Shown piece by piece: positions 1-47,596 of a DNA stretch of 47,596 bases. Position 1 is the stretch's first letter. Each line of letters starts with the position of its first letter. The position numbers and the translations under genes are program-made. The notes under the pieces are model-generated. The model did not search any database, was not told the origin of the DNA, and saw only the letters and a program-made list of their open reading frames with translations. Origin of the DNA: a virus; IMG/VR virus record IMGVR_UViG_3300025921_000691, positions 1 to 47,596 of that record; one strand, 5' to 3'.

Positions 1-1284
1 ATGGAAATTTCACTTTACCTGAAAAGGCCAACGGCCTCACAGGAAACGGTAATTTTTGCAAGAATCACTTATGAAGGTTATTCTTTCAAATATTACCTTC
101 CTGAAAAAATCAAACCTAAATACTGGAGCAAGGAAACACAAAGAGGAAAACAGATAAAACAGTTTCCACAGTACCCCGAATTTAACCAACGTTTGCAAAA
201 TATTATTGCCGGTATTGAGGACGTTTACAGAAAGTACCTAAACGATAATAAAGAACTACCAACAACCGAAATTTTTAAAGAGTTACTGGATAGTGAAATA
301 AAGAAAAAGGTTTCTGAAAAGGAAAGATTAAATTCTTTCTTTGGATATTTTCAAGACCTCATACAGCAAAGTATTTCAGGAACAAGGCGACACCCTAAAA
401 CAAGTAAACCTATTTCAAAGGGAACCATAAAGAATTACAATAGTGCCTTTAACCACCTTAGCGAATTTCAAAAAACACGTAAAAAGAAAATTGATTTTAA
501 AAACATTGATTTAGATTTTTACAAGGATTACACAGAATTTTTAATTAAGAAATTAAAACTTTCAAGTAATACAATCGGGAAGGATATTCAGGTAATTAAA
601 ATGATTATGAATGATGCCACAGAAAGAGGCATTAACACCAACCTTGCCTATAAGAGCAAACGATTTATTACTATTCGTGAAAAATCGGATAACATTTATC
701 TAAAGGAAAATGAGATAAAAGAAATTGAGGATTTGGATTTATCCAATGATAAAAGGCTGGAAAGAGTAAGGGATTTATTTTTAATCGGATGCTACACCGG
801 TTTAAGATATTCTGATTTTTCAATTTTGCGCCCGGATCAAATAAATGATGGGTTTATTGAAACCACGCAAATAAAAACAGGCGAACCGGTTGTAATACCC
901 ATACACCCGACCGTAAAGAGAATAATTGAAAAATACAATGGTGTGTTACCGGCCTCAATCAGCAACCAAAACACCAACGTTTATTTAAAGGAATTAGGCA
1001 AAAAAGTTAACTGTTTAAAAAATGCCTTTCCTAAAACCATAACAAAAGGCGGCCTTACCATTACAGAAAACTTTGAAAAATGGGAGCTTCTTTGCACTCA
1101 TACCGCCCGGCGAAGTTTTGCAACAAACGAATATTTAGCCGGCACACCTACCATTACGATAATGGCAATAACAGGCCATAAAACCGAAAAGGCATTTTTA
1201 CGCTACATAAAACTTACATCAAATGAACACGCCAAATTATTAAAACTGCAATGGCAAAAAAGGTTTGCATTAAAGGCCGTATAA
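1..1284 (+). CDS. Tyrosine recombinase / site-specific integrase
   Basis: A 427-aa tyrosine recombinase that should catalyse integration and excision of the left-hand element. The N-terminal half (about residues 1-220) looks like the Bacteroidota arm-binding and SAM-like core-binding domains. The C-terminal catalytic domain shows the full active-site set: R269 (in TGLRYSD), K292 (QIKTGE), H367-x-x-R370 (HTARR), H393 (TGHK) and the nucleophile Y402 (FLRYIK). The window begins at its ATG, so its promoter and the left attachment site are not visible. The next gene follows after 9 bp. Integrase function is near certain from the catalytic residues; the target site is unknown. Confidence 0.95.
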   Translation: MEISLYLKRPTASQETVIFARITYEGYSFKYYLPEKIKPKYWSKETQRGKQIKQFPQYPEFNQRLQNIIAGIEDVYRKYLNDNKELPTTEIFKELLDSEIKKKVSEKERLNSFFGYFQDLIQQSISGTRRHPKTSKPISKGTIKNYNSAFNHLSEFQKTRKKKIDFKNIDLDFYKDYTEFLIKKLKLSSNTIGKDIQVIKMIMNDATERGINTNLAYKSKRFITIREKSDNIYLKENEIKEIEDLDLSNDKRLERVRDLFLIGCYTGLRYSDFSILRPDQINDGFIETTQIKTGEPVVIPIHPTVKRIIEKYNGVLPASISNQNTNVYLKELGKKVNCLKNAFPKTITKGGLTITENFEKWELLCTHTARRSFATNEYLAGTPTITIMAITGHKTEKAFLRYIKLTSNEHAKLLKLQWQKRFALKAV

Positions 1285-8553: not shown

Positions 8554-11073
8554 GTGTCAGAAGAAAAAAACAATCAATCATTTTTTCACAAGCGCTTGGA
8601 TTCGTTAGGTGTAACGAATGAGAATAATAAGATCTCGCTGTGGCAAAATGATATAAATAATAAAGATTCGCATGAAGAGGTACTGGTCGATGTGCCCATT
8701 TTCAAAGAGGTGCCTGAAGGGATTGAAATCGCTGTCTATACATTGGATCGACTTGCAATAACCTATTCAAAGGAAGGTACGAAAGCGAAGAAAAAATTTT
8801 CAATTATAAGGCTCGAAAATCCGGTAACCCGGGCGGATGGGTCGGTTATGAAATATAAATTGCCGAAGGGCGCCGGGACTCATCCATTCTTTCCGCCGGC
8901 GCTGGTTGATCGGTACGACAAAAAAGAAAAGTTCAATATTCTTTACCTGGTGGAAGGCTATTTCAAAGCCTGGTTTGCCAGCTTACAAGGTGCAAACATT
9001 GTGGGCCTCAGCAGCATCACACACATGAAGAATGCTGAGACCGGAAAGCTTCATCCGGATATTGCAAAACTGATCGAAACCTGCGAAATCAAAAAGGTGG
9101 TTTGGCTGACTGATGGCGATGCGATTGATATCACGCAGAAAGAATTAACTGATGGTTTAGATCTATCAAAAAGGCCGAAAGGATTTTTTGCATCCGTTTC
9201 AACTTTCAAAACTGTTTTTGATGATTTTGAGCATCTGGAAAAATGGTTCTTTCACATCGATACAGACAATATTCTTTCGAACCATCCGGGCAAAGTTTTT
9301 CGCGAAGATGTAAAAGGAATTGATGATTTGCTGATCACGCTTGCTGACGAAAAAAGTGAGATCATGATGGATCTGCACAGCATGCAGCCAGGGAATTATT
9401 TTCAAAAGTTCAACGTTACATATTCCACTTCAAAAGCATACACGCATTTTCATTTGCGCGATGTGAAAGATTTTTATTTATTCCATGTAGAGCGCCGGCC
9501 CGAATTGAAAGGGAAAGAATTTATTTACAATGGCACAAGATACCAGTACAACGAAACAACCGGCGATTGTGACGTGAAGATCCCTGGCGCTGCAAAAATG
9601 TACTTCCGGTGTGGCGATGATTATTTCAAGTTTGTACAAATGCCGAATCAATATAAGCAGCTTGAAAGAACTTTTCATTCAAGAAAAAAGGGAACGATCA
9701 CAGATGATCACGGCGCAAAGTTTACCAAGTTCATTCCTAAATACGAAGCGTTTTGCAACGTTCCTGATCACTTCAATTTTGAACAGGTAATTCATAACTG
9801 CTTTAATGTTTATTCGCCTTTGGATTTCATTCCTGATGAAGAAAAATGCACGGAAGAAGATTGCCCAACGATCATGAATTTTATCAGGCATTTATTTGGT
9901 GAAAAGATTGTTTCCTATAACGATTCTGAAACCAAAGAAAAGCTGGAATACAGAACTATCGATCTCGCATTGGATTACCTGCAGCTGCTTTATCAACAAC
10001 CGCAACAAAAGCTGCCGATTGTGTGCCTGGTAAGTCGGGAAAACAATACCGGTAAATCAACATTTGCAAACTTTCTCCGGATGATGCTTGGAGCTAATAC
10101 CGCGATTGTTGGCAATGCGGATCTGCAATCTGATTTTAATGCACACTGGGCCACCAAATCAGTAGTAGTCTGCGATGAAACGAAAATTGATAAACAACAG
10201 GTCGTTGAAAAAATAAAAAACCTATCCACGGCCAGAAAGATCTTCATGAATGCAAAAGGTCGTGGCCAGGTAGAGCTCGACTGTTTTATAAAGTTTGTTC
10301 TGATCACCAACAATGAAGATTCTTTCATTCATGCAACCGATGATGACATCAGATATTGGGTAATCAAAGTGCCGGTACTAACGCAGGAAAATCCAACGAT
10401 CCTGGATCAGATAAAAGAGGAAATGAGCAGCTTTCTTTCTTTTCTTCAAAATAGAAAATTAGCCACAAAGCTGGAAAACAGAATGTGGTTTCATCCGAAA
10501 TTATTAAAGACAGATGCGCTGAGCAAAGTGATCGCGTACAGCCAGCCACAAGTCGAAAAAGAAATGCGCCATTATCTGAAAGAATTATTCCTGGATACCG
10601 GCGTTAGCGAAATCTGGATGACAACCGACGAAGTGCATAAAGAAATTTTTAAAAACAGCACCAGGTACGAACGCTATTATCTGAGCCGCATCATTAAAGA
10701 AAATTTAAAGTGCGACACGTACCATCTTTTTGAAGTGGAAGGCCTGCCGAAAAAATATAAAACAGAAGAAGAAGCCATCGCAGCTGCAGAGGTAAAATAT
10801 CCGGATGCAGCCGGTTACCTGGCTTTGGGTAAAATAAAAAAATATCACACCGTGGCCCGGTACACTTATCCCCGCATGGAAAAAATAATAACTGACGGCA
10901 AAGAAGATACAAAGCGCATCGAAGTTTCGGGCCACGGCCGTCCTTTCATTTTCCACCGCAAAGATTTTGTGAAGGATGAAGATAATGTGATCGTAAGCCC
11001 GGAAGATATTTTACTCAATTCTATGAGCATGAATGGTCAGCAAACTTTAAAAGCTGATGATCAACCTTTTTAA
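8554..11073 (+). CDS. Phage primase-helicase (TOPRIM plus SF3/D5-type ATPase)
   Basis: An 839-aa protein with a GTG start. Residues ~128-195 form a TOPRIM-like fold: LVEGYFKA (E134) and LTDGDAIDI (D187, D189). The C-terminal ATPase has Walker A around N498-T499-G500-K501-S502-T503, Walker B VVVCDE (D541, E542) and a sensor-1 ITNNED (N586, N587), as in the DUF5906/D5-like helicases of phages and mobile elements. It should prime and unwind DNA during phage replication. It is the main replication protein here; no separate DNA polymerase is seen. It is followed after 3 bp by the HNH-like gene. Confidence 0.85.
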   Translation: MSEEKNNQSFFHKRLDSLGVTNENNKISLWQNDINNKDSHEEVLVDVPIFKEVPEGIEIAVYTLDRLAITYSKEGTKAKKKFSIIRLENPVTRADGSVMKYKLPKGAGTHPFFPPALVDRYDKKEKFNILYLVEGYFKAWFASLQGANIVGLSSITHMKNAETGKLHPDIAKLIETCEIKKVVWLTDGDAIDITQKELTDGLDLSKRPKGFFASVSTFKTVFDDFEHLEKWFFHIDTDNILSNHPGKVFREDVKGIDDLLITLADEKSEIMMDLHSMQPGNYFQKFNVTYSTSKAYTHFHLRDVKDFYLFHVERRPELKGKEFIYNGTRYQYNETTGDCDVKIPGAAKMYFRCGDDYFKFVQMPNQYKQLERTFHSRKKGTITDDHGAKFTKFIPKYEAFCNVPDHFNFEQVIHNCFNVYSPLDFIPDEEKCTEEDCPTIMNFIRHLFGEKIVSYNDSETKEKLEYRTIDLALDYLQLLYQQPQQKLPIVCLVSRENNTGKSTFANFLRMMLGANTAIVGNADLQSDFNAHWATKSVVVCDETKIDKQQVVEKIKNLSTARKIFMNAKGRGQVELDCFIKFVLITNNEDSFIHATDDDIRYWVIKVPVLTQENPTILDQIKEEMSSFLSFLQNRKLATKLENRMWFHPKLLKTDALSKVIAYSQPQVEKEMRHYLKELFLDTGVSEIWMTTDEVHKEIFKNSTRYERYYLSRIIKENLKCDTYHLFEVEGLPKKYKTEEEAIAAAEVKYPDAAGYLALGKIKKYHTVARYTYPRMEKIITDGKEDTKRIEVSGHGRPFIFHRKDFVKDEDNVIVSPEDILLNSMSMNGQQTLKADDQPF

Positions 11074-11076
11074 AAA

Positions 11077-11502
11077 ATGGAACTAAAGAAAAATATTAAA
11101 CCTGGCATTTGTGCAACAAAGTTTTGCAAAAACAAAACCTATGGAGGTCGGAAGCTTTGCTCTTCCTGCCGCTGCAAAAAATCAAGAATGCAGGATCCAG
11201 TGAAATATGCTTTTACCAGTCTTAGATCCAATGCGAAAAGAAGGAATATTTTATTCACTATCACACTGGATCAGTTTCGCGAATGGTGTTCAAAAGTTAC
11301 TTACATCGGGTTTGCTGGAAGATCATCGGAGAGTTATACGATTGACCGGAGACATAATGATATCGGATATCATATTGACAATATAAAAGTGATGAAGAAA
11401 GGCGAAAACGTGAAGAAATATTTTTATTACGATTACCGGATGAAGGTTGCATCGTTTGCCACGCAGGAAGAAGTCGTATCAACAGAAGAAGATCCTTTTT
11501 AA
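11077..11502 (+). CDS. HNH-like zinc-finger protein
   Basis: A 141-aa protein. The N-terminus carries a four-cysteine cluster (CATKFCKNKTYGGRKLCSSC). The second half has the tail of phage HNH nucleases: YTIDRRHNDIGYHIDNIKVM followed by KGENVKK, matching the D-R-x-N-x-x-x-G-Y-x-x-x-N-I pattern that carries the last two catalytic residues. The first HNH histidine is not obvious, so activity is uncertain. It could be a homing-type or packaging-associated nuclease. It lies between the primase-helicase and the DGR genes. Confidence 0.65.
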   Translation: MELKKNIKPGICATKFCKNKTYGGRKLCSSCRCKKSRMQDPVKYAFTSLRSNAKRRNILFTITLDQFREWCSKVTYIGFAGRSSESYTIDRRHNDIGYHIDNIKVMKKGENVKKYFYYDYRMKVASFATQEEVVSTEEDPF

Positions 11503-11802: not shown

Positions 11803-12276
11803 ATGCAAACATTAAAACTTGACGACAACACAGCCAGGAAGCTTTATCCAAAAGCAATTCCTGAATTTAAAACCATCCTGGAACAATCATGGCCGGCTGG
11901 TTTTTTTACTCAAAAAATTACTGAAAGAGTAAAAACTTTCGATGACATCCTGGCTATCAGTGGTCGCACTATGGCTTCTTTAATTAATCCGGATGACCGG
12001 CCGGATGATATTGCCCGCAAACAGATAGAACTGATCGCGGAAGTGTATAACGAAGGTGACCAGTTGGATCCACTCAACACCAAGCAAATCAAGTATTATC
12101 CCTGGTTTGAAATTACACCAGGTTCGGGGTTCGGCCTGTCGTATGGCGATTTCGATGGCTGGATTTCGGGCTCGCATGTCGGCGCTCGCCTTTGCTTTAA
12201 AAATTCAAGTCTGGCGATAGATGCAGGTAAAAAATTCATTGAGATCTATGCAACTTATTATCAAACCAAAAAATAA
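11803..12276 (+). CDS. DGR variable protein 1
   Basis: A 157-aa diversity-generating retroelement target. The N-terminal ~90 residues (MQTLKLDDNTARKLYPKAI) form a helical domain that differs from variable protein 2. The C-terminal part carries the variable region inside GSGFGLSYGDFDGWISGS, then HVGARLCFKN, ending in a helix (AGKKFIEIYATYYQ). The conserved frame xFGLSx...VGARLCFK is familiar from Bacteroidota DGR targets. Residues encoded by template adenines are scattered through the segment, the expected binding surface. The ligand and whether the protein is virion-bound are unknown. No signal peptide. Confidence 0.9.
   Translation: MQTLKLDDNTARKLYPKAIPEFKTILEQSWPAGFFTQKITERVKTFDDILAISGRTMASLINPDDRPDDIARKQIELIAEVYNEGDQLDPLNTKQIKYYPWFEITPGSGFGLSYGDFDGWISGSHVGARLCFKNSSLAIDAGKKFIEIYATYYQTKK
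12123..12196 (+). repeat. DGR variable repeat VR1
   Basis: 74 bp aligned without gaps to the template repeat at 12757-12830. All 55 non-adenine template positions are identical. Of 19 template adenines, 14 are replaced here (mostly by G, also T and C). It lies in the 3' part of variable protein gene 1, in the same reading frame as the open frame across the template. Confidence 0.95.
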
Positions 12277-12283
12277 AAACAAA

Positions 12284-12721
12284 ATGAAAAAAAGTACAAA
12301 ATTTAAAGAGCTATGCAAAACGTACGGCGTTGATTACAAGCTGGTGCCGGAAGTCCTTTCGTTCGAAGATGCCTGTGCGGCAACTGGTAACGATCCTATA
12401 AACGTACCAATTGTTAATCACCTTCCGGAAAGGCATCAGAAGCGGCTAATTGCTGATTACAAATTGAGCGTCATCGCAGATGCTTTAAGGGAGAATAAAG
12501 ATGTTAATTACAACACCCGCGACTATAAATATTTCGCAGTGTTTCTTGTGGAAGCTGATGAACAAAGGCTTTCGGGGTTCGGCCTGTCGTGTGGCGCTTA
12601 CGTTGTCTGGTATTCGTGCTCGGTTGTCGGCGCTCGCCTTTGCTTCGAAAACCGGGACACGGCGATTTTCTTCGGGAAGCACTTTTTGGCCTTACACATT
12701 GACCATCATTTATTAACCTAA
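12284..12721 (+). CDS. DGR variable protein 2
   Basis: 145 aa from the ATG at 12284; the upstream in-frame start would overlap variable protein 1. The N-terminus (FEDACAATGNDP, LPERHQKRLIADYKLSVIAD) is a helical domain that I recognise from other Bacteroidota DGR targets. The C-terminus carries the variable region LSGFGLSCGAYVVWYSCS, then VVGARLCFENRDTA, and ends in a helix. Two Cys residues in the variable part come from mutated template positions. It lies 7 bp after variable protein 1 and 35 bp before the template repeat. Confidence 0.9.
   Translation: MKKSTKFKELCKTYGVDYKLVPEVLSFEDACAATGNDPINVPIVNHLPERHQKRLIADYKLSVIADALRENKDVNYNTRDYKYFAVFLVEADEQRLSGFGLSCGAYVVWYSCSVVGARLCFENRDTAIFFGKHFLALHIDHHLLT
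12571..12644 (+). repeat. DGR variable repeat VR2
   Basis: 74 bp aligned without gaps to the template repeat. 17 of 19 template adenines are replaced; the 55 other positions are unchanged. Only the adenine in TAC (seventh) and the second of the first AAT (twelfth) are retained. Confidence 0.95.
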
Positions 12722-12756
12722 AAATTTAAGGCTGTGTATCGCATTGGGCTGGTGTT

Positions 12757-12830
12757 TTCAGGGTTCAGCCTGTCGTATAACGATTACGATAACTGGAATT
12801 CGAACTCGAATGTCAGCGCTCACCTATGCT
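12757..12830 (+). ncRNA. DGR template repeat (TR) region
   Basis: The 74-bp donor sequence for mutagenic retrohoming. It contains 19 adenines concentrated in AAC, AAT, TAT and TAC codons, the codon bias typical of DGR templates. It lies between variable gene 2 and the reverse transcriptase and would be transcribed as part of a non-coding RNA that is copied with adenine-specific errors. An open frame of 62 codons (GTG at 12734 to 12922) crosses it in the same frame as the variable proteins (SGFSLSYNDYDNWNSNS); I read this as a by-product of template function. Confidence 0.93.
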
Positions 12831-12934
12831 GGTTTTTAAAAAAGCGATACAGGCCCTGCCTCTTGGCAAAAAAAGATTCACCTATAGAATTCATTGGTAG
12901 CAGTAGCGAAGATGAATTTTAAAAAAGCAAAACA

Positions 12935-13894
12935 TTGAAACGGATCGGAAATTTATATCAACAAATTTGCAGCATTGAAAACCTCACACTGGCTGCACAA
13001 AAAGCTGGCAAAGGCAAAAGCATGCAGTACGGCGTTAAACTGTTTAATCGCAATCCGGAAGCCAATATAATGGCCATTCGGAAAATGCTGATCAACAAAA
13101 CTTATTGCACATCTGAATACGATGTTTTCAAAATTTTTGAGACTAAAGAAAGAGAAATTTATCGGCTTCCCTTTTTCCCGGACAGGATCGTTCATCATGC
13201 GATAATGAATGTCCTGGAAGAAATCTTTGTTTCTGTATTTACAGCAGATACCTACAGCTGCATTAAGAAACGCGGGATTCATGCTGCCGCCAATGCTGTT
13301 GCTAAATCATTAAAAGATGTACCAGGTACAAAATATTGCCTGAAGCTGGATGTAAAAAAGTTTTATCCAAACATTGATCATTGCATTTTAAAACAATTGA
13401 TCCGGAAAAAAATAAAGGATCAGGATCTGCTGTGGCTGTTGGATGAAATTATTGATAGCGCTCCTGGTCTTCCGATCGGGAATTATCTAAGCCAGTATTT
13501 TGCCAATTTCTATCTTACTTATTTTGATCATTACATCAAAGAAGTTCTCCGCGTAAAATATTATTCCCGATATGCAGATGACATAGTAATCTTATCCGAT
13601 AATAAGATCCATTTACATCAATTGCTGACCGAAATAAAAAGATATTTCAGCGAGCAATTAAAGCTTACTGTAAAACAAAATTACCAGGTGTTTCCGGTGG
13701 CCAGCCGTGGAATTGATTTTGTTGGTTACCGGTTTTATCACGAAAAAATTCTGCTTAGAAAAAGCATTAAGAAAAATTTTGCCAGGATGTTGGCCAGGCA
13801 TAAAAATAACTCTTCCATTGCAAGTTATATGGGATGGGCCAGCCATTGCAATTCCCGGCATTTAATAAAAAAATTATTACATGAAGCAATTTAA
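12935..13894 (+). CDS. DGR reverse transcriptase
   Basis: A 319-aa reverse transcriptase with a TTG start (MKRIGNLYQQICSIENL, the usual start of Bacteroidota DGR RTs). Motifs: RLPFFPDRIVHHAIMNVL (motif 1/2 region), KLDVKKFYPNIDH (motif 3 with the first catalytic Asp), the DGR-diagnostic PIGNYLSQ at residues 180-187 in place of the retroviral QG, and the catalytic YADD at 213-216. The C-terminus (SIKKNFARMLARHKN, YMGWASHCNS) is the thumb region typical of DGR RTs. It copies the template RNA with errors at adenines. It overlaps the next gene by 14 bp. Confidence 0.96.
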   Translation: MKRIGNLYQQICSIENLTLAAQKAGKGKSMQYGVKLFNRNPEANIMAIRKMLINKTYCTSEYDVFKIFETKEREIYRLPFFPDRIVHHAIMNVLEEIFVSVFTADTYSCIKKRGIHAAANAVAKSLKDVPGTKYCLKLDVKKFYPNIDHCILKQLIRKKIKDQDLLWLLDEIIDSAPGLPIGNYLSQYFANFYLTYFDHYIKEVLRVKYYSRYADDIVILSDNKIHLHQLLTEIKRYFSEQLKLTVKQNYQVFPVASRGIDFVGYRFYHEKILLRKSIKKNFARMLARHKNNSSIASYMGWASHCNSRHLIKKLLHEAI

Positions 13895-14177
13895 AGACTT
13901 TGGTATAAAGCCGGCCATGACAGGCTTTGTAGGAAATAGTATAGATATCAACAGGATTTTAAACAGGGAAGTTATTGTTCATAAATTTTCCGTTGGCCCA
14001 TCAAAGAAAAAAGAAAACACGCAGTGTCTCACATTACAAATAGAAATTGATAATTCGATGCGTGTGATATTTTCCGGATCTAAATTTCTCATCGATATGA
14101 TACAGCGCGTGCCGACAAATGAATTTCCGTTTAAAGCAAAAATTGAAAAAAGAAACGATCATTTTGAATTCACTTAA
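13881..14177 (+). CDS. Small protein translationally coupled to the DGR reverse transcriptase
   Basis: A 98-aa protein (MKQFKDFGIKPAMTGFVGNS) whose start lies 14 bp inside the RT gene. The middle (KENTQCLTLQIEI, MRVIFSGSKFLIDMIQRVP) ends in EFPFKAKIEKRNDHFEFT, a pattern I associate with a small conserved Bacteroidota phage protein. No Avd/HRDC-type DGR accessory protein is recognisable elsewhere, so this is the best positional candidate for a DGR partner. Its role may equally lie in phage replication. Function not established. Confidence 0.7.
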   Translation: MKQFKDFGIKPAMTGFVGNSIDINRILNREVIVHKFSVGPSKKKENTQCLTLQIEIDNSMRVIFSGSKFLIDMIQRVPTNEFPFKAKIEKRNDHFEFT

Positions 14178-16459: not shown

Positions 16460-18277
16460 ATGGCAACAAAAGTTTCAAATTTTACTGCTGCAGACGATTT
16501 GGATGGAACTGAAATAGTTCCTGTTATCCAGGGCGGTGCCAATAGAAGAACCACTGTTCAGAAAATTGCGGATAAAGCAAATGCTGCATCTATTATTGAT
16601 GATGCTGTGCCGGCGAATGATAAAGTTTTTTCTTCTGAGAAAACAGAGCAATTAATTAATGATATTGAATTGACACCAGGCCCTGCCGGTGCAGATGGCG
16701 AATCAGCTTATCAAATCGCTGTTGACAATGGTTTTGTTGGAACTGAAGCGGAATGGTTGACAAGCTTGCAGGGCGCAGAAGGGCCACAAGGTCCACAGGG
16801 TGTTCAAGGTGTACCTGGCACTGATGGAACCGACGGAACTAACGGAACTAACGGCGTTGGTGTTCCTGTTGGCGGTACTACCAATCAAATACTTGCTAAA
16901 GCATCAAATACAGATTATGACACAGCATGGGTTGATGCACCAACAGGAAGCTCTGTCTCAGGTACTACTGGCCGAATTTCCGTTACCGCCGGAGTGATTG
17001 ATATTGCTGCAGCCTATGTTGGCCAAAATACCATTACAACTTTAGGCACCATTGCAACCGGTACCTGGCAGGGAACCGCAATTGCATCCGGCTATGGCGG
17101 AACTGGTTTTTCTACTTATGCAAAAGGAGATATTATTTATGCAAGTGCAGTAAACACGCTGGCAAAATTAGCAGCCGGTACAGATGGATATGTTTTAACC
17201 TTGGCGGGCGGCATACCAATATGGGCAGCGGCAAGTGGAGGTACATCTTTACCAAGTATGACAGGGCAATCAGGAAAATATTTAACTAACGATGGTACTA
17301 CAGCCAGCTGGGGCGTATTAACAGGATGGGCAATAACAGGCAACGCAGGGACAGACGGTGGCACAACAAATTTTATAGGTACTACAGACGCAAGAAACCT
17401 TGTTGTTAAAACTAACAATATAAAAGCTTTCACTGTCACTACTGCCGCTCAGGCAATAATAATGGGTGACGGTAATACTCCTTCAAAAGAATATATTTAT
17501 TTTAGAAATATAGGTTTTGTAAGCTCAAGCGTAGGGATTGGTTTAACATCCGGGTATGGTATGGGATTTTTTACAGGTACTAATAATGCTCCTTTTAGAT
17601 GGATTTCCGGAGGAATTTCTGGGACTGATTTAATGTCTTTAGGTGGTTCAGGATTAAACGTTGCCGGGAATATATCTATTAGTGGAACACTTTCTGGAGT
17701 AACAGACTTAAATATTTCTGGAACCCTGTCTGCTAATTTATTTAAAGCGGACGGAGCTTTTAATATACCAAGAATTTATTACAGATCTCTTGGAGCCACT
17801 AATAATACTGGAGTAGGTTATCAACTTATATCAGGTATGGGTTCTGTGCAGTATTTTGCAAAAACGGCAGATACAGGTTGGTCATGGACTTATGGAGGAG
17901 ATTTGCAAACTACTTCTGCAAATGTACAGATGAATTTAACAACACTTGGTCTATCAGTAGTAAAGGGTATCATAGCTGGAACATCGTCGAACATAACAGC
18001 TTCAGCAGTACTTGAAGCAAGGAGCACCACGCAAGGATTTCTTGAACCACACATGACGGCAACTCAAAAAAACGCTATTGCAACACCGGCAGAAGCCTTG
18101 CAAGTTTATGATAGCACTGTTAAATGCTGGGGAGGATACAACGGGACAGCATGGCAAAATTTTCTTTATGCAGCGGATGGAACTTCTAAAGTAACCAGTG
18201 GAGCACCTTTCACTAATGATGGTTACATCTCTGTAAATATCGGAGGCACTGTTTATAAATTAATGACAACAACATAA
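16460..18277 (+). CDS. Tail fibre protein with collagen-like segment
   Basis: A 605-aa fibre. The N-terminus (about 1-70) is a probable attachment domain. Residues ~105-133 hold collagen-like Gly-x-y triplets (GAEGPQGPQGVQGVPGTDGT), which trimerise. A long Gly/Ser/Thr-rich beta region follows, with phage-fibre repeats (YGGTGFSTYAKGDIIYASA). The C-terminus (FLEPHMTATQKNAI, LQVYDSTVKCWGGYNG) matches a receptor-binding or trimerisation end common in Bacteroidota fibres. It should bind the host surface. Unlike many phages, this receptor candidate carries no DGR variable repeat. Confidence 0.88.
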   Translation: MATKVSNFTAADDLDGTEIVPVIQGGANRRTTVQKIADKANAASIIDDAVPANDKVFSSEKTEQLINDIELTPGPAGADGESAYQIAVDNGFVGTEAEWLTSLQGAEGPQGPQGVQGVPGTDGTDGTNGTNGVGVPVGGTTNQILAKASNTDYDTAWVDAPTGSSVSGTTGRISVTAGVIDIAAAYVGQNTITTLGTIATGTWQGTAIASGYGGTGFSTYAKGDIIYASAVNTLAKLAAGTDGYVLTLAGGIPIWAAASGGTSLPSMTGQSGKYLTNDGTTASWGVLTGWAITGNAGTDGGTTNFIGTTDARNLVVKTNNIKAFTVTTAAQAIIMGDGNTPSKEYIYFRNIGFVSSSVGIGLTSGYGMGFFTGTNNAPFRWISGGISGTDLMSLGGSGLNVAGNISISGTLSGVTDLNISGTLSANLFKADGAFNIPRIYYRSLGATNNTGVGYQLISGMGSVQYFAKTADTGWSWTYGGDLQTTSANVQMNLTTLGLSVVKGIIAGTSSNITASAVLEARSTTQGFLEPHMTATQKNAIATPAEALQVYDSTVKCWGGYNGTAWQNFLYAADGTSKVTSGAPFTNDGYISVNIGGTVYKLMTTT

Positions 18278-21914: not shown

Positions 21915-23108
21915 GTGAAAATAAGTACCGTACTTTCTATTCTTCGTGATAACTGGATGATGACTGAATCATCTATCCAGGCTTACGCCGAAGCTGCCAA
22001 AGAATATTTAGCAGGCAATGTAATCAGCACCGGTTTATTTTCTCAAATCGCGCTTCCGGATGTTCCTGACAACATCGCGCTCATTCCTATTAATGGAGCC
22101 ATGACAAAAGCAGATATATGCGGAGGCATGGGAACACGTTCTCTTAGCGAAGCTATTAGCCAGGCATCTGCCGACCCTTCGAAATCTTCTATTATTCTTT
22201 ATTGGGAATCCGTACCCGGTGGCCAGGTAGACGGAACCGCAATTCTTGCTGATGCCGTGAAAGCTGCATCAGAAAAGAAACCGGTATTATCTGCAGTGAG
22301 TGGCTTAATGGCCAGCGCAGGTGTGTGGGTAGGTTCGCAGAGCACAGAGATTTATGCAACCTCACAAACCGATCAGATTGGTTGTATAGGTGTAATGGCA
22401 AAATTGAAAAATCCGGCAACCGCCAGCAATGATATCATTGATGTGGTCAGTGATCTTTCTCCTGATAAAAATGCAGAATTCAAAGATGTGCAGATCCTGA
22501 AAGATATGTACCTGAATCCTGTTGCGCAGATGTTCCAGGATGCGGTAAAAGAAGGCCGTGGCGATAAGTTGAAAGCAGGCGATAAAGTATTAACCGGCGG
22601 CACATTCATCGCAACGGACGCAAAGAAAAACGGGTTGATCGATGGCATCATGCCATTTGAAAAAATCGTACAACGTGCAAATTATTTATCTAAAAAAAAT
22701 CAAAATAAAAATACCATGAGCGCTACAAAAAATATTGCGACCGCCGCAGAATTTCCTTTTAAAGATGTATTGGCAGCCGCCGGAGTGGAAGCCCTGGAAC
22801 CTATTGAACAAGGCTTTGCTATCAAAGAAGAAAACCTGACAACTCTCAATGCACGCATCGTGGCATTGAATACAGCAGAAACCAGCCTGGCAACCGCCAC
22901 AGCCCGTGTGACTGAATTGGAAAAAACAGTAGCTGAAAAAGAAACTGCAATCACGGCATTGAATGCGACCGTTGCGGAATATACAGGAAAGCCAGCGCCT
23001 GTGGTTGCTGATCCTATTGCAACCAAAGATGCAGATCCGGATCCAAAAGCAAAATATTTAACCAGTGTAGATGCAGAAGCTGCAAAGCTTGCTGCTGAAT
23101 GGGAATAA
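21915..23108 (+). CDS. Capsid maturation protease (S49) fused to scaffold domain
   Basis: A 397-aa protein with a GTG start. Residues ~50-260 form an S49 (SppA/ClpP-fold) peptidase: LIPINGAMTK near the start of the fold, the nucleophile S134 in GLMASAGVWVGS, and TDQIGCIGVMAKL with the expected downstream region. Residues ~268-397 are Ala/Glu/Thr-rich with a coiled coil (ARVTELEKTVAEKETAITAL), typical of an internal scaffold. An ATG at 22716 (Met268), preceded by an AT-rich spacer like those before other genes here, could give a separate 130-aa scaffold protein. It lies directly before the capsid gene. Confidence 0.85.
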   Translation: MKISTVLSILRDNWMMTESSIQAYAEAAKEYLAGNVISTGLFSQIALPDVPDNIALIPINGAMTKADICGGMGTRSLSEAISQASADPSKSSIILYWESVPGGQVDGTAILADAVKAASEKKPVLSAVSGLMASAGVWVGSQSTEIYATSQTDQIGCIGVMAKLKNPATASNDIIDVVSDLSPDKNAEFKDVQILKDMYLNPVAQMFQDAVKEGRGDKLKAGDKVLTGGTFIATDAKKNGLIDGIMPFEKIVQRANYLSKKNQNKNTMSATKNIATAAEFPFKDVLAAAGVEALEPIEQGFAIKEENLTTLNARIVALNTAETSLATATARVTELEKTVAEKETAITALNATVAEYTGKPAPVVADPIATKDADPDPKAKYLTSVDAEAAKLAAEWE

Positions 23109-32947: not shown

Positions 32948-33715
32948 ATGAAAAAAATTATTTACCATAAAAACAAATCTTTTCTTCTTCCGGAAACGCC
33001 GGAAGAGTTAACCGGTAAACAATTCATCCTGATTGCCGGACTGTTGCACCAGGAATACACAACAGCGCTCAAAGCAAGCCTCTCAGCGTTGCGTATTCTG
33101 GCCGGGATGTCACGCTGGAAGTTTTTACGGCTTTCTGGGGAGGTTAAATTGAACAGTTTGGAGCATGTGCAATGGATTTTTGACAAAATCAGCATCACCA
33201 AAAATTTAATTCCTGTTTATAAAAATTTTTATGGCCCTGCAGAAGAATTGAATAACATGACACTCGCAGAATTCCATTTTGCCGAAAAATATTATTCACA
33301 GATAAAAGGAGAAAATTATGGCGCACTTCCCCATCTTATTGCGACGATCTATCGAAAGTCAAAGCCAGCGTATGATAAAAAGCTGGATAAAGATGGGGAC
33401 GTCCGCCAAAAATTTAATTCTAATGTCGTTGATTTTTATGCAAAGCAGATCGCCAAGTGGCCGGCGGCTGTAAAGTTTGCCATTCTTATTTTTTACGATT
33501 CATGCCGCGATCAGATTGCCAATGATAATAAAGAAATTTTTTCAGGAACCGGCGAAGGCGATGGATTGGGAATGTATTCCGTGATGCGCGGACTGGCCGG
33601 CCCAAAATTCGGCGAAATAGAAAAAGTGGAAGACATGCTGTTGCATAATGCATTGCTGGAATTGAATCTGATTCGGGACGAGGAAAAGGAATTGGAAAGA
33701 CTTTCAAAAAAATAA
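32948..33715 (+). CDS. Hypothetical structural-module protein
   Basis: A 255-aa soluble protein (MKKIIYHKNKSFLLPETPEE) with helical repeats and a C-terminal EDMLLHNALLELNLIRDEEK segment. Its ATG follows the previous stop codon with no gap. Tail assembly chaperones sit in similar places in other phages, but nothing in the sequence confirms this. Confidence 0.6.
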   Translation: MKKIIYHKNKSFLLPETPEELTGKQFILIAGLLHQEYTTALKASLSALRILAGMSRWKFLRLSGEVKLNSLEHVQWIFDKISITKNLIPVYKNFYGPAEELNNMTLAEFHFAEKYYSQIKGENYGALPHLIATIYRKSKPAYDKKLDKDGDVRQKFNSNVVDFYAKQIAKWPAAVKFAILIFYDSCRDQIANDNKEIFSGTGEGDGLGMYSVMRGLAGPKFGEIEKVEDMLLHNALLELNLIRDEEKELERLSKK

Positions 33716-33759
33716 ATTATACAGGTTTGGACGACCTTAAAAAATCCACTAAGAATACC

Positions 33760-33990
33760 ATGAGAGCAAAATTTAAAATTGTAAACATTCAGAGGGGCGA
33801 AACTTCGGAGCTTCTAAAGTTTTCTGCTGTTTGTGCAGATAATTACGGCGAACATGGCGAAAATGAAGATAACGATTTCGCCAGATATACGCCTTATGGA
33901 GAACTTTCAATGAGTGTTACAAACCCTGATCTGTTGGGTAAGTTTAATGAAGGCGAAAAATATTATTTAGACTTTACGAAAGCTGAATAA
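33760..33990 (+). CDS. Small conserved phage protein
   Basis: 76 aa from the ATG at 33760 (MRAKFKIVNIQRGE), preferred to a TTG eleven codons upstream. The ending MSVTNPDLLGKFNEGEKYYL followed by DFTKAE is recognisable from many small Bacteroidota prophage proteins. A beta-rich fold is likely. Function unknown. Confidence 0.68.
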   Translation: MRAKFKIVNIQRGETSELLKFSAVCADNYGEHGENEDNDFARYTPYGELSMSVTNPDLLGKFNEGEKYYLDFTKAE

Positions 33991-34034
33991 TTTAAAAGGT
34001 AAAGTAATGAGTTAACTGTAGTAAACCAACAAAT

Positions 34035-34550
34035 ATGGGCACTTTCAAATCAAAAGAAGATTACCTGAAGCAACTCTGCATCGATCATCCAGATGTGGCG
34101 TATGGATCTGTTGTGAATGGCGTTACCAGGAATAGTTTTTTCCGGATGAATGCCGATGAAGAATTGCTCGCAGCCACGGTTGCAAATATTTCTTATCCTG
34201 CGGTGGGTTACGTGTCGCTTCGTGGAAAATTAAAAGATACAGATAATCAACTGCTCGACATCAGGCATTCATTTTCAAACGCCTGGCTTTTCATCCAGCA
34301 CGTTTCAATGATCACAGTTACCGACGGTTTTACAGATGCCATCCAGGAATGCTACGATCAAACATTTTCTATCGTGGAAGATTTCATAAAAATGATGAAA
34401 GATGATTTTGAAGCAAACGGCAGTTGCGGCGCTTTTCAAAATTTTGACCTCAATAAAATTAGTTATGAGATGGTTGGCCCAGTGTTCGAAAATGAATATG
34501 GTTGGTATCTCTATTTCGATGACGAGCAAAAAGCGAGCAGAATAATTTAA
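34035..34550 (+). CDS. Hypothetical phage protein
   Basis: A 171-aa acidic soluble protein (MGTFKSKEDYLKQLCIDHPD). Visible parts: FSNAWLFIQHVSMITVTDGF and a C-terminal NEYGWYLYFDDEQ. It lies within the portal-tail operon. No family recognised. Confidence 0.6.
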   Translation: MGTFKSKEDYLKQLCIDHPDVAYGSVVNGVTRNSFFRMNADEELLAATVANISYPAVGYVSLRGKLKDTDNQLLDIRHSFSNAWLFIQHVSMITVTDGFTDAIQECYDQTFSIVEDFIKMMKDDFEANGSCGAFQNFDLNKISYEMVGPVFENEYGWYLYFDDEQKASRII

Positions 34551-45960: not shown

Positions 45961-46158
45961 ATGCCATCGCCTATAATAAATATTTCTGCACAAGTGAAGC
46001 CGCTTCTTTCCGAAGAGGAAAAAGATTGCCTACATTTATTGTCTCAAATTTTTGTACAAAAAATAATTGTTTATGAAAAAAGCCATCGGTTACATCAGGA
46101 TCAGCACCAAGGATCAGAGCAACTTCTCACTGCCGGGACAGGAGAAATACATCCGTGA
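45961..46158 (+). CDS. Small ORF overlapping the recombinase start
   Basis: A 65-aa frame (MPSPIINISAQVKPLLSEEE, then KDCLHLLSQIFVQKIIVYEK) ending 86 bp inside the recombinase gene. The first 40 residues look like a genuine helical protein; the part in the overlap does not. It may be a small regulator of recombination such as a directionality factor, or a frame by chance. Confidence 0.4.
   Translation: MPSPIINISAQVKPLLSEEEKDCLHLLSQIFVQKIIVYEKSHRLHQDQHQGSEQLLTAGTGEIHP
46049..46062. promoter_or_regulatory. 14-bp perfect palindrome before the serine recombinase
   Basis: TTTTTGTACAAAAA, a perfect palindrome ending 10 bp before the recombinase ATG, within the promoter/leader region. It could be an operator controlling recombinase expression or part of a recombination site. 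Confidence 0.5.
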
Positions 46159-47596
46159 ATACTGCAACCAGCACGACATTGAACTGCATTCGCTTTTTAC
46201 CGATGATGGAAAATCGGCAAAAAATTTTGACCGCCCGGATTGGAAATTACTGGAAAAATTTATTGAAAAACATTTCCGCGATATTGATTATCTCATCGTC
46301 GCCAAGTATGATCGTTTTTCCAGGAACGCAGCACAGGGCCTTTCTAAAATAGAACTGCTGGAAAGAAAATACAAGATCATTATTGTATCTGTGTTTGAGC
46401 AAATGTTCATTGATTACGATTCACCGTTTTTCTTTAAACAACGTGCCGACATGCTGATCAGCGCCGAATTTGAATGGCATGTGATCCGTGACCGCACGAA
46501 ATTTGGAATCCACAATGCATTAAGTGCCGGAAGATTTATCACGCTTGCACCTTTTGGATATACGAACGCTCGGGATGAACAAAATAAACCGATACTGTTA
46601 TTGAATGAAGCAAAAGCGAACATCATTAAAAATATTTATGCCGGCTTTCTTCGCGGCGTATCATTCAAAGAATTGAGTATCGCAGCAAGATCAGAAGGGT
46701 TGACAAATTCAGGCAGGTCGGCCATTCAACGCATTCTTACTAACCCGGTTTATGGCGGATTAATCTTTGTTCCTGCATACAAAAAGGAAACTGAAAAATA
46801 TGTGAAAGGATTGCATCAGGGGATCGTGGCAGAGCATACCTGGTGGGCCGTGCAGCAGCTGATGAACAAAAGCAAAGTGCGTACGATTGTAAATGATGAA
46901 GTTCCTTTAAGATCAGTGTTGCATTGCCATTGCGGCCATCCATTAACAGCCGGCAACAGCAAAGGGAAAACGAAATATTATTGGTATTACAAGTGCAACA
47001 AACACCCGGAAACCAGTTACAGCGCTACCATGTTACACAATCAATTTGATGAATTATTAACGAATCTTTCTTTGTCAAAAATTCATATTGATTACTTACG
47101 TGAAGATGCCAAAAAAGAAATGGAATTACAACTCCAAAACAGAGACATTGAATTGAAGGATTTGAAAAAAGAATTGCACACCACCATCACTAATATGCTT
47201 TCTTTGGAAGAAAAATTTATTACCGGTGATATTCAATCGGAAACATATAAAAGGTGGCATTCAAAATATTCAGCCACAGAAAGCCATTTGCGCCATCGCA
47301 TTGACATGCTCAGCGACAATACGAACGCAACATGGAAACTATTTAATCAGGAACTGCCAAAGCTTGGAGATATCAAATTATTGTATAGCTGGGCTACAGT
47401 TCCACAAAAACAATCCTTTATAAACCTGGTGTTCAACTCACAATTACGATATGTAGATGGTGCCTATCGAACACCTTTTATCCTACCGCTCTTTTCGCTG
47501 AACACTGCGTCGTTAAAGGAAAAAAGGCTGCTCGAAGTGGAGCAGCCAGAGGCAAAATTTGGAGAAAAATTGCTAAGTACCCGGGATGGGAGTTGA
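46073..47596 (+). CDS. Large serine recombinase (phage integrase)
   Basis: A 507-aa serine recombinase from the ATG at 46073 (MKKAIGYIRIS); a TTG two codons upstream is possible. The catalytic domain has YIRIS with S11 as nucleophile and VAKYDRFSRN with the active-site Arg. The recombinase domain (about 170-260) includes APFGYTNA and RILTNPVYGGLIF. A zinc ribbon (LHCHCGHPLTAGN, YYKCNKH) and a coiled coil (~355-420) follow, as in phage integrases such as phiC31 and Bxb1. It integrates and excises the prophage. It ends at the window edge; the attachment site beyond is unseen. Confidence 0.93.
   Translation: MKKAIGYIRISTKDQSNFSLPGQEKYIREYCNQHDIELHSLFTDDGKSAKNFDRPDWKLLEKFIEKHFRDIDYLIVAKYDRFSRNAAQGLSKIELLERKYKIIIVSVFEQMFIDYDSPFFFKQRADMLISAEFEWHVIRDRTKFGIHNALSAGRFITLAPFGYTNARDEQNKPILLLNEAKANIIKNIYAGFLRGVSFKELSIAARSEGLTNSGRSAIQRILTNPVYGGLIFVPAYKKETEKYVKGLHQGIVAEHTWWAVQQLMNKSKVRTIVNDEVPLRSVLHCHCGHPLTAGNSKGKTKYYWYYKCNKHPETSYSATMLHNQFDELLTNLSLSKIHIDYLREDAKKEMELQLQNRDIELKDLKKELHTTITNMLSLEEKFITGDIQSETYKRWHSKYSATESHLRHRIDMLSDNTNATWKLFNQELPKLGDIKLLYSWATVPQKQSFINLVFNSQLRYVDGAYRTPFILPLFSLNTASLKEKRLLEVEQPEAKFGEKLLSTRDGS

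Follow-up and report, generated by a model that had tools for sequence, protein, structure and literature searches.

To our knowledge, the diversity-generating retroelements (DGRs) of phages have been explained almost entirely as diversifiers of tail fibres. The locus described here raises the question of what such an element diversifies when its target genes are located among replication genes. The sequence analysed (the window) is the whole 47,596-base virus record IMGVR_UViG_3300025921_000691, in which no host genome is included. The phage is temperate, and an integrase is present. A tyrosine integrase lies at the left end of the window (1-1284), and the right end (46067-47596) carries a large serine recombinase, so that either one putative provirus carries both site-specific recombinases or the right one belongs to flanking DNA. 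The features of the locus and its surroundings are as follows.

8554-11073, plus strand: primase/helicase-type replication protein, upstream context
11077-11502, plus strand: HNH/endonuclease VII-like protein, upstream context
11803-12276, plus strand: T1, the distal DGR target, 157 aa, phrog_11581, predicted to be mainly helical, with its variable repeat (VR) near the C-terminus
12123-12196, plus strand: VR1, within T1, with 14 of 19 template adenines and 0 of 55 other positions changed
12284-12721, plus strand: T2, the proximal DGR target, about 145 aa, paralogue of T1, phrog_11581
12571-12644, plus strand: VR2, within T2, with 17 of 19 template adenines and 0 of 55 other positions changed
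12757-12830, plus strand: template repeat (TR), non-coding, 74 nt
12852-12934, plus strand: RT-17 structured RNA (Rfam RF03020) in the TR-RT spacer, with compensatory changes in relatives
12935-13894, plus strand: DGR reverse transcriptase (RT), 319 aa, TTG start, GNYLSQ at 13478 and YADD codons from 13571
13881-14177, plus strand: Acc, a basic (pI 9.6) 98-aa protein, probable OB-fold accessory
21915-23108, plus strand: head maturation protease, the first recognised structural gene, about 8 kb downstream

The T1 stop and the T2 start are 7 nt apart, and the 5' end of Acc overlaps the 3' end of the RT gene by 14 nt. The initial annotation spanned the 98-aa gene at 13881-14177 without naming it, and the RNA at 12852-12934 went unnoticed there.

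The TR, VR1 and VR2 align without gaps, and neither VR departs from the TR at any of the 55 non-adenine positions. For a duplicated repeat whose mismatches were placed at random, the chance of all of them falling on adenines would be 2.5e-11 for VR1 and 7.5e-15 for VR2. No further TR match was found elsewhere in the window on either strand, none exceeding 28 of the 55 non-adenine positions. The RT frame is open, the PIGNYLSQ and YADD motifs are intact, and the protein matches phrog_1423 (9e-124); its nearest phage relatives are annotated crAss-like DGR RTs (up to 56%, for example cr55_1 and cr60_1). A retron or group II intron RT was rejected, as the best models scored far below their curated cut-offs (110 versus 300 bits for group II introns, 64 versus 235 for retrons). 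On each defining feature that was open to testing, the element qualifies as a DGR. The TR, two VRs and intact DGR-type RT confirm the complete two-target element originally described, and the RT, with its open frame and conserved motifs, does not look catalytically dead.

The adenines at TR offsets 3, 10, 58, 65 and 69 are changed identically in VR1 and VR2. Fixed differences were surveyed in relatives, using 152 TR/VR pairs with the TR motif CACCTATG as anchor. Positions -61, -60, -54, -6, +1 and +5, at the repeat edges, show a single base, G or T, in 97-100% of the pairs, and position -13 is likewise fixed in a few of them; the VRs carry a mixture of A, G, T and C at inner TR adenines. The window TR adenines at -61, -54, -6, +1 and +5 are precisely the five that are changed alike in both VRs. 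Such differences occur at both the 5' and the 3' edge of the repeat, and might be marks of the IMH versus IMH* type or reflect selection for Gly or Arg. By this comparison, the five edge adenines are fixed TR/VR differences, either boundary marks or residues required or selected in the protein, and not independent mutations. Because they are fixed across the family, the informative counts are 9 of 14 adenines for VR1 and 12 of 14 for VR2. The original claim of adenine mutagenesis in both targets is supported, but its 14 and 17 changed adenines include the five fixed differences and cannot all be counted as independent mutations.

The RNA between the TR and the RT gene matches RT-17 with a score of 40.8, just above the gathering score of 40.4, and the gathering score is also exceeded in two relatives (L016 and L036). 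When 40 TR-RT spacers were aligned, the RT-17 structure, with nine base pairs, was present in nearly all. In this alignment 93.9% of cells are paired, versus 32-39% when the pairing is slid, and two-sided compensatory changes support eight of the nine pairs. The structured spacer of the BPP-1 DGR occupies the same place, where it both brings in the RT-Avd complex and serves to prime cDNA synthesis (PMC12875486). By analogy, RT-17 RNA may have the same recruiting and priming role. The location between TR and RT assigns this orphan Rfam family to a DGR template spacer. No papers on RT-17 or RF03020 were found in the open literature searched. The Rfam families RT-14 and RT-18 overlap RT-17 at 12824-12930 with sub-threshold scores, which suggests that several of the "RT-n" families may be DGR TR-RT spacers.

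Known DGR accessory proteins are of the Avd, HRDC and MSL types (PMC10053308). No Pfam match to any of the three was found among the cassette proteins. Some DGRs lack Avd, so its absence is not disqualifying. Instead, the RT gene is followed by Acc (phrog_19665), whose homologues are neighbours of the RT at 120 of the 138 distinct loci. A search starting from Acc retrieved 80 loci, all 80 with a DGR RT adjacent and 77 with targets; in the remaining three, the record starts only a short way upstream of the RT. In a set of 50,697 phage records, Acc has just two matches, both in archaeal viruses and each directly after an RT, one of them that of the ANMV-1 DGR. An "Avd" ORF has been drawn for ANMV-1 (PMC4372165), which may or may not be the Acc homologue. 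Pfam has no match for Acc, and 68 Acc members together give only one weak match, to Ribosomal_L31. The AF2 model (pLDDT 93) has the order beta3-alpha-beta2, and several OB folds are among its Foldseek matches, all of them weak (E no better than 0.02). Acc is probably an OB-fold nucleic-acid-binding protein to judge from this model, and is a candidate for a new type of DGR accessory that archaeal viruses also have.

The family was collected from RT relatives in viral contigs and from target relatives in genome and viral contigs. The target profile query was the closer 11-member subset; the full 67-member alignment has no conserved stretch. Among the 138 distinct RTs gathered are 119 non-redundant DGRs with small targets and A-only VRs, so the adenine pattern first seen in the window recurs when TRs and VRs are aligned across relatives. 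Two targets are found in 94 of these DGRs, three in 19, one in 4, four in 1 and five in 1; where a second target seems to be missing, contig truncation is partly responsible. Genome matches are mostly from Bacteroidota, with some from Ignavibacteria and a few from other metagenome-assembled genomes. By sequence comparison, the same cassette is carried by more than 100 phages or prophages, evidently viruses of Bacteroidota-group bacteria.

Pairs of related cassettes bear on activity. Two of them (L166 and L167) have six differences in about 2.2 kb, and all six are at VR adenines (6 of 41 VR adenines, 0 of 112 VR non-adenines, 0 of 73 TR positions and 0 of 1984 positions elsewhere). The prophages of Elizabethkingia miricola and E. 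occulta differ at 23 of 38 VR adenines, 0 of 116 VR non-adenines, 0 of 77 TR positions and 61 of 1882 positions elsewhere. Because near-identical cassettes differ only or mainly at VR adenines, the family is active. This activity is read directly from the sequences of relatives, and the window phage, represented by one genome, can be called active-type.

Several loci depart from the usual arrangement. In a 94-kb virus (L047:5695-7472), a single RT has one TR/VR pair on either side, and each of the pairs has a small target to itself. At L029:5331-5576, a VR with 14 of 20 adenines changed is located in an 80-aa ORF downstream of the RT; this ORF is without the usual target N-terminus, and might represent a transplanted VR or a broken target. 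Four target genes stand in tandem in an uncultured Aquimarina (L092:7965-9668); three of the four are nearly identical, and there is no RT within 7 kb. In Dyadobacter (L068:3453-15916), targets that match a single TR lie to either side of it, at distances of up to about 7 kb.

The function of phrog_11581, which both targets match, is listed there as unknown, and neither T1 nor T2 matches any family in Pfam or NCBIfam. The two proteins had been thought to join different N-terminal domains to one variable module. On the contrary, they are homologous over 125 residues, mostly outside the VR (BLASTP, 32% identity, E 5e-17). For the 117 loci at which exactly two targets adjoin each other, a target tree from which the VR columns were excluded separates RT-distal and RT-proximal targets into two paralogous clades, one of which holds 105 distal and 3 proximal genes. 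The distal/proximal label changes 9 times on the tree, versus about 77 times in shuffles. The tree indicates that the T1/T2 pair arose by an ancient duplication and that both copies have been retained together in the 117 dual-target loci.

In both targets the VR ends about 26 codons before the stop, and a conserved helix follows. The AF2 model of T1, made with 67 relatives, is all-helical (mean pLDDT 88), and the VR forms a low-confidence loop between a conserved KYYPWF motif and a C-terminal helix pair. Neither the C-type-lectin nor the Ig-like fold for which the initial annotation proposed a test is seen in this model, although the VR segment does resemble the VR of C-type lectins by sequence. 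Searches of the PDB with T1 by sequence and by fold found nothing, and its BFVD matches are uncharacterised phage proteins only. In hhalign comparisons of profiles, the C-type-lectin tail targets of related DGRs share only the VR segment with the target family (over 29 columns in the tandem family and 42 in the gut-phage branch), whereas the two branches of the target family match each other over their whole shared length. By sequence, the variable loop of T1 and T2 is thus of the C-type-lectin-VR type, set in an unrelated scaffold.

The genomic surroundings agree with the earlier view that the targets are near replication genes, away from the tail module, and so are probably not the receptor-binding fibre. 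The primase/helicase and HNH genes lie upstream, and in relatives the neighbouring genes belong to RecT, exonuclease, SbcC, primase, helicase, HNH and methyltransferase families, with no tail families among the best 25 families listed per side. Neither a tail-module location nor tail homology outside the VR was found for T1 and T2. The tail module itself is mapped only roughly, because most structural genes of the window are not recognised by PHROGs or Pfam. Some early-region genes are known to encode virion proteins, and this weighs against a non-structural reading drawn from position. A 605-aa protein encoded 2.5 kb downstream of the DGR (16460-18277) has PHROG and NCBIfam matches to collagen-like adhesins and tail proteins, and is possibly a fibre without a VR.

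Members of the target family are also found far from the RT. In LoVEphage, a member at 33613-34197 is flanked by genes for C5- and Dam-type methyltransferases and RtcB. Compared over 112 nt with the TR beside the tail-adjacent RT of the same phage, it is changed at 19 of 25 adenines and at 0 other positions. The Versailles member (10181-10762) has SbcC, NinB and DnaC-like genes as neighbours, and differs from the TR of the tail-adjacent RT at 14 of 22 adenines and 0 other positions over 107 nt. The remote member of crAss-like phage cr60_1 is changed at 14 of 20 adenines and 2 other positions. In all three phages, the same TR also matches the adjoining tail protein. Seven more RT-distant targets, several bacterial genomes being among their sources, each correspond to a TR next to an RT at another place in that genome or record. 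A DGR-independent role for targets that seem to lack an RT was considered and rejected for these seven; others in the set had no such match. According to Benler et al. (PMC8008677), Quimbyvirus has a second target located close to methyltransferases and a tRNA ligase; a second VR in the vicinity of counter-defence genes is reported from four prophages (PMC12629997). The accessible portions of these two papers do not state a family identity for the LoVEphage remote target. By sequence, this target belongs to the T1/T2 family, and it fits the published description of a second target.

We consider it probable that the window carries a dedicated, active-type DGR of a temperate Bacteroidota phage that diversifies non-structural early proteins. 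If the mechanism follows that of BPP-1, the TR would be transcribed through the RT-17 RNA, which would recruit the RT, together with Acc in place of Avd, and prime cDNA synthesis. Adenines would be copied with errors, and the cDNA would replace VR1 and VR2, with a potential output of up to about 1e10 protein variants per target. Because of their gene position, the lack of a tail neighbour and the absence of any export signal evident on reading their sequences, T1 and T2 are presumed to be cytoplasmic and early. Each would display a variable C-type-lectin-VR-like loop on a helical scaffold, and most likely would bind varying factors of the host or of rival phages, in counter-defence or inter-phage conflict. 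Perhaps, then, T1 and T2 are a diversifiable pair of intracellular binding proteins, forming a phage-encoded, antibody-like conflict system in which a C-type-lectin-type loop is grafted onto a helical scaffold and an OB-fold accessory serves for Avd; this more specific reading is offered tentatively. As a proposal only, we favour a role in conflict (counter-defence or inter-phage) over prophage immunity, and prophage immunity over a virion protein or a regulator.

Were the targets made in the lysogen, they might instead be prophage immunity proteins that bind variable parts of incoming phages and block superinfection. A temperate phage with an integrase, an early-region location and a diversification suited to a moving target would all accord with this, and DGRs have been proposed to act in prokaryotic immunity (PMC10053308, PMC10907252). 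However, the targets have no recognised toxin, nuclease or signalling domain, and neither they nor Acc have a PADLOC match, which makes this role doubtful. Many RT models in PADLOC do match, and these matches show RT kinship only. It is less likely again that T1 and T2 are virion components, such as minor tail proteins or internal ejected proteins, that recognise the host and whose genes merely reside in the early region. Well-studied phage DGR targets are all receptor-binding proteins, the VR segment resembles that of C-type-lectin tail targets, and the Versailles relative is annotated "tail protein", a label that may come from the VR segment alone. Against this, the neighbours are DNA-metabolism genes across many unrelated genome types, no similarity to structural families was found outside the VR, and the TR of LoVEphage and that of Versailles already have a tail protein to diversify, with the family member far off among methylase or recombination genes.

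Two further explanations have little probability. T1 and T2, as a pair of small and largely helical proteins encoded in a temperate phage's early region, could be regulators of the repressor or antirepressor type, whose immunity specificity would be shifted by the DGR. Searches of Pfam, the PDB and Foldseek found no DNA-binding domain in the targets, the TetR-like Foldseek matches to T1 have E of 2.7 or worse, and most targets are acidic (median pI 5.4), so a regulator is very improbable. We give slightly less credence still to an inactive relic, with an RT that has ceased to function and repeats whose divergence is a past event. The window phage is known from a single sequence, as a relic would allow, but its RT is open with YADD and the conserved motifs intact, both targets are open, identity at 55 of 55 non-adenine positions is kept in both VRs, and close relatives are active.

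If the non-structural reading is right, an entire RT subclade, equipped with an RNA and an accessory protein of its own, diversifies a family of small non-structural early-region proteins at a minimum of 119 non-redundant loci, with targets usually maintained as a paralogue pair. The T1/T2 family also includes the "second target", so far unexplained, that a common gut phage carries near methyltransferases, and the role of intracellular DGR targets becomes directly testable.

The DGR of Bordetella phage BPP-1 (Mtd, Avd, bRT) resembles the window element in its A-specific mutagenesis, its TR just upstream of the RT, its VR near the C-terminus of the target, and its structured spacer RNA between TR and RT (PMC12875486). 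However, BPP-1 has one target, a tail-fibre C-type-lectin protein, and its accessory is the four-helix Avd, whereas the window has two paralogous early-region targets, no Avd-family match and a different, basic accessory after the RT. An Acc homologue directly follows the DGR RT in the archaeal virus ANMV-1 (PMC4372165) and in vir525, as in the window, but the targets of these viruses are tail-module proteins, unlike T1 and T2. Two targets per TR are also found in the tentaclin phages (PMC10743442), where both have C-type-lectin domains and tentaclins are described as receptor-binding proteins.

The closest phage RTs are those of crAss-like DGRs (cr55_1, cr60_1 and crAssphage LMMB, PMC7290462). 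In cr60_1 there is, as noted, a remote family member with an A-biased VR, but the RT-adjacent target of crAss-like DGRs is a large tail protein, unlike in the window. The gut-phage DGRs of the Quimbyvirus/LoVEphage type (PMC8008677, PMC12629997) share with the window a non-structural target near methyltransferase and tRNA-ligase genes, Quimbyvirus being likened by its description. In these phages one TR serves a tail protein and one remote family member. In contrast, the window DGR serves tandem members of the family only, and sits with them in the early region.
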